From the NCBI GenBank assembly GCA_016202645.1, contig JACQOF010000054.1, positions 1-7,830 of the forward strand: a stretch of 7,830 nucleotides of DNA. The letters are read 5' to 3'. Source of the stretch: a bacterium (GTDB taxonomy: Bacteria > Lindowbacteria > 2-12-FULL-62-27). This document shows, piece by piece, positions 1,523 through 6,358 of the stretch (its first letter is position 1; each line of letters opens with the position of its first letter). The notes below the pieces were generated by a model. The model worked only from the letters and a program-made list of their open reading frames with translations. It did not search any database and was not told where the DNA came from. The translations under genes and the position numbers were made by a program.

Positions 1523-2011
1523 TCACTTGCCTTTGGCGGCTGCGCCGCCGGTAAGGATGCCTAGGAGCACAAGTAGCACGACCCGCCACCTCCTGTTTCG
1601 GCATGCACCGCCGTCCAGCCGGTGCGCATCGAGAACTCTAGGATCCGTCGCCGAAGCCACTCCAAATATCTCACCGCGCTCCGGCTTAAGTTCAAAATAG
1701 TATTGAATGGTCTCCGCGTACGGTATCTGCGTGATGTACGTTAGGGACGGAGTTAGTGTCAGTTTTCTTCTTCTGTACCCCGGTTCAAGGTCCCTCCGAT
1801 ACAGGAGATAGATAGAGTCAATCGTCAGCGTTGTCCTGACTATGAACTCTAGCTCAAGTCCCTGTCCACCCCGACCGTCCCCGACACTCCCGCAGACGAT
1901 ACCCTTCTTCAGATTAACCTCCGAGATCTCTTCCGACAACGACCAGCCCCCTCCCAAAGAGACCATCAACAGAACGGCCTCCACCTTCGCCACAAACCCC
2001 CGTCCACTCAA
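1523..2011 (-). CDS. Hypothetical protein with C-terminal membrane segment
   Basis: I do not recognise a family for this gene. From a TTG at 2011 it encodes 162 aa. The middle looks beta-rich, with alternating hydrophobic and polar stretches (LELEFIVRTTLTIDSIYLLY, KLTLTPSLTYITQI). A single hydrophobic stretch near the C-terminus (VVLLVLLGILTGGAAA, about 144-159) is preceded by an Arg-rich CRNRRWR and followed by KGK, as in a tail-anchored membrane protein. The TTG at 2011 is preferred because it overlaps the upstream gene's stop (TTGA) and has GGGGAG 6 nt before it. An upstream TTG at 2047 is possible but lies deep inside the preceding gene. It is the last gene of the co-oriented cassette and is translationally coupled to the multi-pass membrane protein, so the two may act together. 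A role as a membrane-bound accessory or effector is speculation. Confidence 0.6.
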   Translation of the reverse strand: MSGRGFVAKVEAVLLMVSLGGGWSLSEEISEVNLKKGIVCGSVGDGRGGQGLELEFIVRTTLTIDSIYLLYRRDLEPGYRRRKLTLTPSLTYITQIPYAETIQYYFELKPERGEIFGVASATDPRVLDAHRLDGGACRNRRWRVVLLVLLGILTGGAAAKGK

Positions 2012-2733
2012 GTCTGGCTCCCCAACAGCGAACCCATAATTAGCCAATACACACGTCCGGATAGCACCCTAGACCACCAATACGTTAAGATATGAGCAAC
2101 TAAGGCTCCCACCCACGCTCTCGCAAACGTCAGCCGCAGAGCCTTCACCTGAGATAGGACGCGCGGAAGTATGTAAAGTGTGAAGTAAAATGTAACTGTC
2201 AACTCCGCCCCGTAGAACAGCCATGATCGCGCTCGCGCCGCGCCTGTCGCCGGCTCGGCATACAAAAGCAAATAACGGGCAGCTCCGAAGTAGTCGAGGT
2301 TCGGTGAGCTCCTATTGATGAACATCTCGAGCGCTTTAGCGAATACTTCCACTCGAACAGCCCAGACGATGGGGATCTGGCCACCCAAAGCGTACAGGCT
2401 CGCTGCCGTAGCCGCTCTGGTGATTCGTCGGGGGGAGCCCAAGAACCAGACCGCGATATTAAGTGTCATTACAAAAAAGGCTACGTTGATCAGTTGTGCG
2501 AGTCCATACAGTGGCATGCCACAGATCTCCAAGTAGGAGATATTCGGGTTCATAACTTTCATCACTGCGAATTGAATAATCAGCGAGATGGACAGGCCTG
2601 TAGCAAGCGAATTACAAGCGCTCTTGAGTGAGTCCAGGCTATTCTCGCCGAGGAGGATGAGCTCTTTAGAGCAAATGCTCTTCGCCCACCAAGCCGCTAG
2701 TTGATCAAATGGGAAGGCACGCATGGCATTCAC
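2008..2733 (-). CDS. Multi-pass membrane protein of unknown function
   Basis: This 241-aa hydrophobic protein has five to six predicted membrane spans at about residues 41-60, 74-99, 106-128, 170-190, 203-220 and perhaps 224-237, joined by short loops. A charged N-terminal stretch of about 40 residues and an Arg-rich turn (GSPRRITRAA) follow the expected topology signals. Length and layout resemble small Yip1-like or similar multi-spanning proteins, but no diagnostic motif is visible, so no function is given. The GTG at 2733 is the longest start; an ATG at 2724 is an alternative. Neither has a good ribosome binding site. The gene starts 16 nt after the stop of the basic protein, so translation is probably coupled. 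Its stop overlaps the start of the next gene. Codon use is less GC-biased than in the flanking IS and sensory genes, which supports shared foreign origin with the cassette. Confidence 0.75.
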   Translation of the reverse strand: MNAMRAFPFDQLAAWWAKSICSKELILLGENSLDSLKSACNSLATGLSISLIIQFAVMKVMNPNISYLEICGMPLYGLAQLINVAFFVMTLNIAVWFLGSPRRITRAATAASLYALGGQIPIVWAVRVEVFAKALEMFINRSSPNLDYFGAARYLLLYAEPATGAARARSWLFYGAELTVTFYFTLYILPRVLSQVKALRLTFARAWVGALVAHILTYWWSRVLSGRVYWLIMGSLLGSQT

Positions 2734-2749: not shown

Positions 2750-3067
2750 TCAGGAGACCAGCTCCCTCGCCCTCTGAATCGCCGCCCTCACCCCCTTCGC
2801 CTCCCGGATCCTCCTGACCCGCGCCTTCTGCCTCGGCCTCAGCTGTCTCATGTAGCCCATGTAGCGGCCGTGGAGGACCAGGGAGGCACGGGCCTTCGCT
2901 GAAAGAGGAGGGTGCGATCCAGCACGGGGTTTGCGTCGACGCTCGATGCGGCCGTCCAGTTGACTCAGCATTGAAGCGAGGCGGCGGAGGGAGCTGTCAA
3001 GGGTGCGGAGAGAGCGGCGCATGGTTCGGATATCTTGTGCTATGCCGTATCGGCTTCGTCTTGGCAT
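2750..3067 (-). CDS. Small, highly basic helical protein of unknown function
   Basis: This encodes 105 aa, extremely rich in Arg and Lys and lacking Cys. The first half (about 10-45: DIRTMRRSLRTLDSSLRRLA and onward) has regularly spaced hydrophobics consistent with an amphipathic helix or short coiled coil. The second half (LSAKARASLVLHGRYMGYMR followed by RPRQKARVRRIREAKGVRAA) looks like a conserved compact helical module with a Tyr-Met-Gly motif. The composition suggests nucleic-acid binding, but I do not recognise the family. The start is the ATG at 3067, because AGGAG stands 5 nt before it. A longer frame reaching a TTG at 3181 has no ribosome binding site. The gene lies 141 bp after the protease gene and 16 bp before the membrane-protein gene, on the same strand as both. 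Confidence 0.72.
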   Translation of the reverse strand: MPRRSRYGIAQDIRTMRRSLRTLDSSLRRLASMLSQLDGRIERRRKPRAGSHPPLSAKARASLVLHGRYMGYMRQLRPRQKARVRRIREAKGVRAAIQRARELVS

Positions 3068-3208: not shown

Positions 3209-4120
3209 TCATCGACGTTCTGCACGTTCCTTCACCGATCTATTGCCTTGGCGGATCAACGCAAAGCCCGCTCGCTCCGCTATCATCAAGGACACGAGCC
3301 TCGTTGGGTTACCCCGGTACATCATCCACTCTCCATAGTAGTCCACCTCTTCTTCCCCACAGCGAAGGTAGATCCTCGAAGGGATCGACGTCACACCTTC
3401 TCCACTCCTGAGTCCCTCTATCGCCCGAAAAGATCGCGGTGCAATTTCATATTCGCCTAGGGAGCCAACTGGCAACCCGATGTTCGCCCACACCCTCATC
3501 GCGTGTCCGCCCTTGAAAGCGTCACCACGCCAATCACATTCCCAAAGGACAATGGCACACTTCCGGACTGCGGTCTCCATGACCCTGTTGCTGGCCGCAT
3601 CAAACGATACTTTGTAGCGCTCGCTGAGCGCCTTCAGGAGGGGTAGCGATAACCCATCTTTGAATAATACCGACCGCCATTCCTTCAATGGCATCAGTAG
3701 CTCTGCGGCGAAGGCATCGCACAGGTGCTCCACCTCACGTGCTTCATTTGTTCTACTAATAACCTCTCCTGAGATGTGTCGCAACGCTTGGGCCAAACCT
3801 GTCGCCCCAAACAACTCTACGTGGCCGATCTCATGAGCTAGTGAGAATCGCTGTCTTACGAGGGGGGACTCCGAATTGATCGTCGCGACGTAGCCAGAGG
3901 CGGTCTCCTTCAAGACAGCATCCACGCGCAGTGGTTGCCTCTGCACTTCGATATGACGCTCCGCGGCGATTGCTTCAATGGGAGTCGCTGTGCCCGATTT
4001 CGCCAGAGTCGGCAACCTGCTCGCGAGCTTCATGGCACCCTCGTTCGCATCGCAGGTGCACATAATTCTCGCCAGGTTGTTGGCAACCGCAGAAACCCAG
4101 AGGCGTCGGCGTTCGCTCAC
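3209..4120 (-). CDS. ImmA/IrrE family metallo-endopeptidase (peptidase M78)
   Basis: This 303-aa protein carries the M78 (DUF955) signature. FSLAHEIGHVELF includes the zinc-binding HEIGH motif (His96, Glu97, His100). EVEHLCDAFAAELLMP follows, where Glu131 is the likely third ligand and FAAELLMP is the family's conserved helix. Known members (ImmA of ICEBs1, IrrE of Deinococcus, CapP) cleave XRE-type repressors in response to DNA damage or a related signal. The segment after about residue 190 is longer than a minimal protease and may sense a signal or bind the substrate. The GTG at 4120 is chosen because GAGGA lies 7 nt upstream, inside the end of the kinase-NDT-XRE gene whose stop is only 3 nt away. 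The two genes are therefore co-translated, and the fused HTH protein is the most likely substrate (inference). Confidence 0.92.
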   Translation of the reverse strand: MSERRRLWVSAVANNLARIMCTCDANEGAMKLASRLPTLAKSGTATPIEAIAAERHIEVQRQPLRVDAVLKETASGYVATINSESPLVRQRFSLAHEIGHVELFGATGLAQALRHISGEVISRTNEAREVEHLCDAFAAELLMPLKEWRSVLFKDGLSLPLLKALSERYKVSFDAASNRVMETAVRKCAIVLWECDWRGDAFKGGHAMRVWANIGLPVGSLGEYEIAPRSFRAIEGLRSGEGVTSIPSRIYLRCGEEEVDYYGEWMMYRGNPTRLVSLMIAERAGFALIRQGNRSVKERAERR

Positions 4121-4123
4121 CCT

Positions 4124-5938
4124 CTAGTCCTCGCTGACAGCTTCAGCGTTCTGGTCAGTAGGGTTCGTGCCGTTCAGGTCAGCCTTATACAGTCTGAGCC
4201 ACTGAGCGTCAGTTATCGCTGCCGGGGGGCCGCCCTCCGTGCCCCGCGCCGCGGCCGCCTCAAACTCTTTTTTCAACACGTCTCGCCCGAAGGCCTTCAA
4301 ACGGGCGTACCTTGCGTAGCTCAATTGCTCATTCCTCGCAAACTCTCTCAGAGTAGCTAAACTCTTGCGATACAAATCCTCGAACTGCTGGTCCTTTCCC
4401 GAAGCATCCCGGAGTAGCTCCGCAGGAGTCACATCCAGTGCCCGTGCGACCCGCCGGAGGTTCACTATGCTCAGGTTTGAAAGCTGCTCAGGCCTACTCT
4501 CTACGGCCTCTAGTTGCTCCTTAGGTACTCCTGCTTTCTCTGCCAGGCCATTGATGTCAAGCCTGTACTCCTCTCTGCGCGCTCGAATCCGTCTTCCCAC
4601 CCTCAGATGGTATTGACGCTCATGACTCTTTCTCATTAGCCGGAACCGACTTCGGTTGTCTTTGACAAATCCCTCGACAACTGTTCTGAGCCTATCAAGA
4701 TCGCCGAACTCGAATTCTCCAAGGATTGTTGCCGCTGTTCCTCGGAGCATTCGGGATACTCGCGTTCCCTGCGAATACAGAAGGACGATTGGAACCCCAG
4801 CGTTGCCAGCGATCTCAGCCTCTTGGCCCACTCCGTGGCTCGGGTCATCAGCATACACGAAGAGAAGATCAGAACCTGCAACGCGCTCCCGATCGATCCA
4901 ATAGACCTCGGGTGCAGTAAGGTCAGGGGTGTCTCCAGGCCCGGTGCGTTCAGCCGGCAGGTAGACAGACATGCCCCCCTGCGAACCGGCCGTCCTGACG
5001 ATCTCACCAACGTTTCTGGCTCTCTTTTCCTCTTCTGCGGTCGACCGAGAGAGCGCGCAAGCGAAGTAGGCCCGAAGTGGGATCATGAGAGGAACATTCG
5101 CTGCCAAGCGATCCATGCATGCGAGTGCGCTGGAGGGTCGATCATCCGGGTTGGGCGCTAGGAGATCACGCACGAGCCTGAAGCATCCTTCCCAGATGGG
5201 TCCTCTACCGCGTATGCGCTCATCGAACTTGATGTCGTGGCGCTTCTTGGCAGCCAGGAGGTCAGGTGTGCGGGTGATCCCAGAGAATACTTCACGGTTG
5301 TAGAGTAGGTAGTAGAGCGTGGCCCCGAAAGAGTAGAGGTCAGATCGGAAATCATACTGATCATCGAAGACATACTCTGGCGCGGAGTACCTGTATGTCC
5401 CGATGAATCGAGCATCCCCTTCCGTTACGCCGGGATCACGCAGGGAACGGACTATTCCGAGGTCGAGTAGTCTAAAGCGTCCCTGCAGATCCACGTGGAT
5501 ATTCTTCGGCTTCACGTCACGATGCAGTCTCCGGCTTGAGTGAAGATACTCCAGTGCGTCGAGCAGTTCGGTGCAGAATCGCAAAAGAGACTCGTCTTCG
5601 GGAGGATCGACACGTGTGCGCCAAGCCTCGAGGCTGCTTCCCTCACACCATTGCATCACCAAAAAGGGCGGACTTGACTCGCCATCTGCGTGAAACACCT
5701 TGACTAAGTGTGGATGTGAGAGTCGAGAGCCTGTACCAAACTCCTCGTCGATCCGCCTGCGCTGGGCAGGTTCGCGAAGGATCTCAGCCCGGTACACCTT
5801 AAGAGCAACCGTGGCTCCGGCTGGTGCGAAGGGGAGATCGCGATTCGTGTTGGCTTTCCACACCTCGCCTGCAGCACCAGTACCACAGATTTCCAGGCGA
5901 GTGAAGTCATCGAGTGAAACGATTCGACTGCTGGTCAT
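4124..5938 (-). CDS. Ser/Thr kinase / nucleoside deoxyribosyltransferase-like / XRE helix-turn-helix fusion
   Basis: This is a 604-aa soluble fusion with no membrane segment. Residues about 9-285 are a Hanks-type Ser/Thr kinase: Gly-loop GTGAAGEVW (19-27), VALK lysine 47, an alpha-C Glu at 65 or 66, catalytic HRDVKPKN (Asp141, Asn146), DLG at 159-161, SAPE ending at 188, and the late Arg267. All catalytic residues are present, so it should be active. Residues about 289-427 resemble the nucleoside 2-deoxyribosyltransferase fold: YFACALS at the first strand, SDLLFVYADDPSHGVGQEAEIAGNAGVPIVLL with Glu373 at the catalytic-Glu position. It could hydrolyse, transfer or merely bind a nucleotide. Residues about 447-509 form an XRE helix-turn-helix (GLAEKAGVPKEQLEAVESRP, ALDVTPAELL). 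A helical tail follows. The ATG at 5938 is preferred over the GTG at 5941 because GGAGG lies 7 nt before it. It is the first gene of the cassette and sits 3 nt before the M78 protease gene. Calling it a defence or stress switch is inference. Confidence 0.9.
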   Translation of the reverse strand: MTSSRIVSLDDFTRLEICGTGAAGEVWKANTNRDLPFAPAGATVALKVYRAEILREPAQRRRIDEEFGTGSRLSHPHLVKVFHADGESSPPFLVMQWCEGSSLEAWRTRVDPPEDESLLRFCTELLDALEYLHSSRRLHRDVKPKNIHVDLQGRFRLLDLGIVRSLRDPGVTEGDARFIGTYRYSAPEYVFDDQYDFRSDLYSFGATLYYLLYNREVFSGITRTPDLLAAKKRHDIKFDERIRGRGPIWEGCFRLVRDLLAPNPDDRPSSALACMDRLAANVPLMIPLRAYFACALSRSTAEEEKRARNVGEIVRTAGSQGGMSVYLPAERTGPGDTPDLTAPEVYWIDRERVAGSDLLFVYADDPSHGVGQEAEIAGNAGVPIVLLYSQGTRVSRMLRGTAATILGEFEFGDLDRLRTVVEGFVKDNRSRFRLMRKSHERQYHLRVGRRIRARREEYRLDINGLAEKAGVPKEQLEAVESRPEQLSNLSIVNLRRVARALDVTPAELLRDASGKDQQFEDLYRKSLATLREFARNEQLSYARYARLKAFGRDVLKKEFEAAAARGTEGGPPAAITDAQWLRLYKADLNGTNPTDQNAEAVSED

Positions 5939-5945
5939 CACGTCC

Positions 5946-6327: not shown

Positions 6328-6358
6328 ACATGTCGTCCGTCGATGAAAGACGACATGT
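6328..6358. repeat. 10-bp perfect inverted repeat with 11-nt loop
   Basis: ACATGTCGTC (6328-6337) and GACGACATGT (6349-6358) are exact inverse complements. The stem is longer than expected by chance in a region of this size. No T-tract follows on either strand, so it is not a typical terminator. It lies about 50 bp from the apparent edge of the island, near the gene-end fragment at 6408-6488, and may be a remnant of a mobile-element end or a recombination site. Confidence 0.45.

Follow-up and report, generated by a model that had tools for sequence, protein, structure and literature searches.

CapH/CapP, CapW and CapK/CapS controllers answer to DNA damage. Published accounts describe activation of the protease CapP by single-stranded DNA (ssDNA), cleavage of the repressor CapH and derepression of the operon; PprI is also activated by ssDNA, and its repressor is cleaved (PMC10904395, PMC13373217). 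CapW or CapH with CapP is associated with 219 of 544 operons for bacterial ubiquitination-like (Bub) systems, while CapK phosphorylates the repressor CapS and immune operons are thereby derepressed (PMC13373217). The stretch of DNA analysed here (the window) is a complete contig of 7830 bases from a 2.9 Mb draft genome, and it encodes a probable variant of the CapH/CapP controllers that carries a fused kinase and a putative nucleotide-binding domain.

Domain content of the fusion protein

The fusion gene lies on the minus strand at 4124..5941 (stop codon at 4126-4124) and encodes, in order, a kinase, a DNPH1/nucleoside deoxyribosyltransferase (NDT)-like domain, an XRE helix-turn-helix (HTH) and a C-terminal tail. 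Translation from GTG at 5941 gives 605 aa and from ATG at 5938 gives 604 aa, the latter being the boundary in the preliminary description, which left the strand unstated; a purine-rich stretch (ggagggg) is found ahead of the gene start. The frame from 5941 to 4124 is uninterrupted, without an internal stop, and third-position G+C is even over the kinase (0.60), middle (0.56) and HTH (0.63) regions, compared with 0.94 in the upstream gene. This argues against a chimeric or joined assembly, so that the assembly error considered in the preliminary description is not supported as the origin of the fusion. No hydrophobic segment was detected in the protein by hydropathy and it looks soluble, as had been proposed.

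The Hanks-type Ser/Thr kinase domain (residues 14-272; 5126..5902, minus strand) was identified with Pfam Pkinase (E 3.1e-36). Its catalytic motifs are intact, comprising the P-loop GTGAAGEV, the VAIK lysine K48, HRDVKPKN (HRD D142, N147) and D160 of DLG. The PD-T4-6 and MAD6 defence models matched this domain only (6e-48 and 2e-50, respectively). Assignment to either defence kinase was rejected: the match is to a generic kinase domain, the curated NCBIfam cut-off for MADS6 was far from reached (79.6 versus 460 bits), and no MADS genes were recognised by Pfam or NCBIfam near the fusion on the 7.8 kb contig. The XRE/Cro-C1 HTH (residues 452-509; 4415..4588, minus strand) was detected by Pfam HTH_3 at E 4.5e-5, a score just above the Pfam cut-off.

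The domain between them (residues 290-428; 4658..5074, minus strand) had no meaningful match in Pfam. A single-sequence phmmer search detected an NDT structure at E 8e-4, and a profile of the window sequence with two distant relatives described below (L055 and L034), compared with the PDB, recovered the same NDT at 1.3e-6 and Rcl/DNPH1 at 7e-6. An AlphaFold (AF2) model of the middle domain, built from five sequences (pLDDT 83.9, pTM 0.82), has the NDT-type alpha/beta fold with five strands. Foldseek matched this model to DNPH1, MilB and deoxyribosyltransferases (best E 2e-6), and VIA-align gave Z 14.6 to MilB with CMP (4jem) and Z 14.4 to DNPH1 with hmdUMP (8qhq). The combination of kinase, deoxyribosyltransferase-like domain and XRE HTH in one chain, as claimed in the preliminary description, is therefore borne out by Pkinase, the predicted fold and HTH_3. 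The fold survived the structure prediction that had been suggested as a check; of the suggested HMM searches, those for the kinase and the HTH gave Pfam matches, with the middle domain found by profile.

In rat DNPH1, phosphate is held by Ser87, Gly89 and a partner-subunit serine (printed as Ser17', taken here as Ser117'), and the sugar by Glu93 and Met119' (PMC3834327). Alignment places Y292, D350, S368, G370, E374, S396 and M398 of the window protein at the positions that serve ligand contact or catalysis in DNPH1; these include the catalytic Tyr, Asp and Glu (Y292, D350 and E374) and the phosphate-binding serines (S368 and S396). The glutamate that had been proposed as catalytic is E374. 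As the serines for a 5'-phosphate are kept, a DNPH1/MilB nucleotide hydrolase is a better relative of the middle domain than a deoxyribosyltransferase. The kept DNPH1 contact residues make a nucleoside monophosphate the likeliest ligand as judged from sequence, and catalysis by the domain is possible. The GGR phosphate loop, which makes a backbone contact to phosphate, is missing from the aligned window, L055 and L034 sequences; its G12-R13 is invariant in seven stand-alone DNPH1-like proteins.

The part consisting of the middle domain and HTH had no match in plasmids or phages, and three scans of viral contigs for DNPH1-like sequences returned only two distinct stand-alone relatives. In one viral contig, a DNPH1-like ORF with 34% identity to the window domain (L143:2794-3618) is located near a cytidine-deaminase-like ORF. 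A phage ORF of this type is a possible source of the DNPH1-like domain.

An adjacent CapP-like protease and related loci

A CapP-like M78/ImmA-IrrE metallopeptidase of 303 aa (3209..4120, minus strand; Peptidase_M78 E 1.1e-14) starts 3 nt past the stop of the fusion gene. Among PADLOC models, capP was the best match (E 1.5e-28) with RmrA next (5.5e-12). The protease has HEIGH at 3821-3835, giving H96, E97 and H100 of HExxH, and E131 is a candidate third ligand, as judged from invariant residues. The HTH protein directly upstream of the M78 protease and the protease itself both match their Pfam families (HTH_3 and Peptidase_M78) above cut-off. Plasmid relatives of the protease include CapP proteins of Agrobacterium and Acinetobacter, whose genes directly follow a CapH-type HTH gene and are accompanied by CBASS genes. 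This protease, overlooked in the preliminary description, shifts the likely mechanism from the self-contained kinase switch proposed there to a protease-controlled repressor, and the evidence leans towards the fusion and the M78 protease forming a two-gene controller that, like CapH/CapP, is triggered by its protease.

An alignment of the protease was scanned against bacterial genome contigs, which returned 80 loci. In two of these, the protein encoded ahead of the protease has an HTH or HTH-like region behind its DNPH1-like domain: L055, found in a planctomycete (E 4e-16 for the middle domain; HTH_3 E 1.5e-8), and L034, found in an actinomycete (E 1.7e-10 for the middle domain; no HTH by Pfam). 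Phylum samples of the L055 and L034 genomes were then searched, yielding L156 and L157 and subsequently L158, L160 and L161. At least seven further proteins in Planctomycetota and the phylum of L034 thus have a DNPH1-like domain with a clear or weak HTH-like C-terminus, these counts being lower bounds from samples of collections. Pfam gave only a weak HTH match for L157 (E 0.011) and none for L156, L158, L160 or L161, where this region was assigned by alignment only. A CapP-like protease directly follows five of the seven, namely L055, L034, L157 (capP E 2e-23), L158 (4e-27) and L161 (3e-18); none was seen in the short flanks of L156 and L160. The proteases of six DNPH1-linked loci cluster (0 of 500 shuffles as low), with 3 label changes versus 5.8 when shuffled in one tree and 1 versus 5.6 in a careful tree. 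The uniting branch has support of only 57/0, too low to establish a single origin for these proteases. Another nucleotide-metabolism fold directly ahead of a CapP-like protease was observed on a Deinococcus psychrotolerans plasmid (L009:2189-4729), where genes for DUF4062, for a protein annotated as uracil phosphoribosyltransferase and for an M78 protease stand in a row.

The catalytic Asp at D350 is replaced by Asn in four of the eight family proteins (L156, L157, L160 and L161). The same Asp-to-Asn change is present in a human DNPH1 structure (8rps), described in its title as D80N with bound substrate. These versions hint at binding without turnover and, together with the missing GGR loop, speak for binding rather than turnover in some members of the family, among which the window protein need not be counted. 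This bears on an alternative in which the DNPH1-like domain is an effector that, once released or activated, starves phage replication by hydrolysing deoxynucleoside monophosphates, with the kinase and HTH as control parts. The kept catalytic residues and phosphate-binding serines in the window protein and the cytidine-deaminase-like neighbour of the viral relative are in keeping with such an effector; however, the substitution in half of the family and the missing loop make it an unlikely explanation.

None of the seven relatives has a fused kinase. A survey of 386 genomes from across the domain Bacteria gave no second fusion, viral contigs contained no close relatives of the whole fusion, and the plasmid matches listed for the whole fusion cover chiefly its kinase region. 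The middle domain and HTH are a recurring unit, a point not made in the preliminary description, and the kinase is an addition to this unit. With a single example of the kinase fusion observed, the role of the kinase is unreadable from conservation. If the fusion were a single-chain analogue of CapK/CapS, its kinase, the motifs of which are intact, would sense damage or a ligand and phosphorylate its own repressor part as CapK does CapS, the repressor part would leave the DNA and the protease would be secondary. This is rather more doubtful than the effector alternative, as the seven relatives lack the kinase but five have the protease, and CapK (a GHKL kinase) and CapS (a STAS-wHTH protein) are both unrelated to the window domains.

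Doc/Fic enzymes are a group-transferring toxin family, and in L034 and L160 the DNPH1-like gene is overlapped at its start by an intact Doc/Fic gene. The position of Doc/Fic is occupied by the kinase in the window, which may point to a functional parallel. A separate ORF upstream of L161 gave weak support for a degenerate Doc (E 0.024 versus 2.4 for the best shuffle); the N-terminus of L158 was also considered as a degenerate Doc domain and this was not supported. A PemK/MazF-type toxin gene on the opposite strand (L160:1081-1518) overlaps the far end of the L160 DNPH1-like gene. Further neighbours of L034 are an E1 gene (DUF6791-ThiF) and a multi-ubiquitin gene, and L156 adjoins a Prok-E2 gene. 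As Bub operons often have CapW or CapH with CapP (PMC13373217), this setting of L034 and L156 fits a controller of immune operons.

Near the end of the fusion protein, the motif TDAQWLRL (residues 577-584; 4190..4213, minus strand) conforms to an [ST]xxxWxxL element common to the partners of proteases in the CapP subclade. Of 13 partner proteins grouped with that of the window, 11 have this element, versus 8 of 69 others (Fisher 3e-7, with pattern and grouping chosen post hoc); on sequence grounds, it may be a docking or cleavage element. A similarity of the whole tail to cyanobacterial CapH tails was tried and rejected, as the profile scored under shuffled tails and only the short W motif survived. 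No inference was drawn on the tail from a model of the NDT-like domain, HTH and tail, in which its pLDDT is <50, and a cleavage site is not readable from the sequence.

Genomic setting and origin

A perfect 10-nt inverted repeat with an 11-nt spacer (6328-6358; RNA fold z -1.95) is located ~390 nt upstream of the fusion, in a 570-bp gap. It may be an operator or equally the terminator of the GAF-PAS gene, and no operator for the fusion was established in this gap. Downstream, the minus strand encodes a membrane protein of 241 aa with two or more hydrophobic segments by hydropathy (2008..2733), overlapped at its end by an ORF of 174 aa (1523..2047). The membrane protein had no match above cut-off in Pfam or NCBIfam and no plasmid relative; it is a possible regulated effector. 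A small basic protein of about 105 aa is encoded at 2750-3067, with a G+C content above that of its neighbours, a single copy in the genome and no family match.

Third-position G+C is ~0.60 in the fusion, the protease and the two downstream ORFs. The upstream GAF-PAS gene has 0.94, the IS66 genes have about 0.8 and the other kinases of the genome have 0.73-0.76. The low value relative to the surroundings makes this four-gene segment look acquired. Beside the low-G+C cassette are IS66 genes for TnpB and TnpA, together with a short ORF of equally high G+C (484-1292 and 2-352); the IS66 genes and foreign composition point to a mobile island. The search of the host phylum covered three genomes, and the fusion-protease pair had no matches in the genomes of two family relatives. 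No known immune operon was recognised by Pfam, PADLOC or NCBIfam on the 7.8 kb contig, which ends here. A general DNA-damage or housekeeping stress regulator like PprI/DdrO, with no link to phage immunity, would match the protease superfamily (PMC10904395) and the lack of known immune genes on the contig, but is very unlikely given the foreign G+C, the nearby IS66 genes and the two relatives that adjoin ubiquitin-like immune-type genes.

Proposed mechanism and comparison with known systems

In the favoured protease-triggered controller, the fusion would bind DNA through its HTH and repress its own operon. By comparison with its relatives, the M78 protease would be activated by ssDNA, as with CapP and PprI, and the fusion would be cut and repression lifted. 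The DNPH1-like domain, to judge from its conserved residues, may bind a (deoxy)nucleoside 5'-monophosphate and tune dimerisation, cutting or kinase activity. The N-terminal kinase would replace the separate Doc/Fic of some versions from the actinomycete phylum, and in the least certain step would either phosphorylate the controller or be a toxic output. The earlier interpretation is thus partly supported: the proposed link to nucleotides in a conflict system agrees with the findings, with a DNPH1/MilB hydrolase as the closer relative, and the adjacent protease makes a protease-controlled repressor likelier than a kinase switch.

A broader proposal, offered tentatively, is that these loci form a nucleotide-sensing class of protease-triggered immune controllers. 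Each would fuse a DNPH1-like domain to a repressor HTH and be cut by a CapP-type protease of its own. An interchangeable enzyme that transfers groups (Doc/Fic in the actinomycete phylum, the Hanks kinase in the window) would be coupled to it and act as the effector or as a second trigger, and one protein would thereby read both DNA damage and disturbance of the nucleotide pool. In a limited search of open papers, no description was found of a DNPH1-like domain or Hanks kinase fused to a CapH-type repressor. If the proposal holds, a nucleotide-hydrolase-type domain on a repressor would give the controller a second, nucleotide-pool input, and DNPH1-like domains serving as sensors, some with a natural Asp-to-Asn change, would put the fold to a use that is new within the papers searched. 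A kinase in place of a Doc enzyme suggests that such a controller is able to carry its own effector.

Among described systems, the PD-T4-6 and MAD6 kinases share a Hanks kinase domain with the window protein, the likeness being limited to that generic domain. CapK and CapS also link a kinase to a transcription repressor of immune operons, but as separate genes and with no homologous catalytic domain. The DNPH1 (Rcl) and MilB N-hydrolases share the fold and the Tyr, Asp, Ser, Glu and trans-acting Ser positions, whereas the window domain, known from sequence and model, is fused to kinase and regulator domains and has no GGR loop. PprI/IrrE and DdrO of Deinococcus are likewise an M78 protease and XRE repressor pair, with an ssDNA-activated cleavage that is inferred for the window; however, DdrO has no enzymatic domains, and PprI has its own HTH and a GAF-like domain. 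The likeness to CapH and CapP of CBASS and Bub operons is as follows: an XRE-type HTH gene directly precedes an M78 protease with capP as best match, and relatives adjoin E1, E2 or multi-ubiquitin genes. In contrast to CapH, which has about 105-120 aa with an HTH and a short C-terminal part, the window HTH protein has 605 aa and carries a DNPH1-like domain and a kinase, and its protease stands apart from the Agrobacterium and Acinetobacter CBASS CapP in the tree. Because of this size and the extra domains, and with no immune operon recognised on the short contig, the fusion is classed as a variant of CapH/CapP and not as a member.
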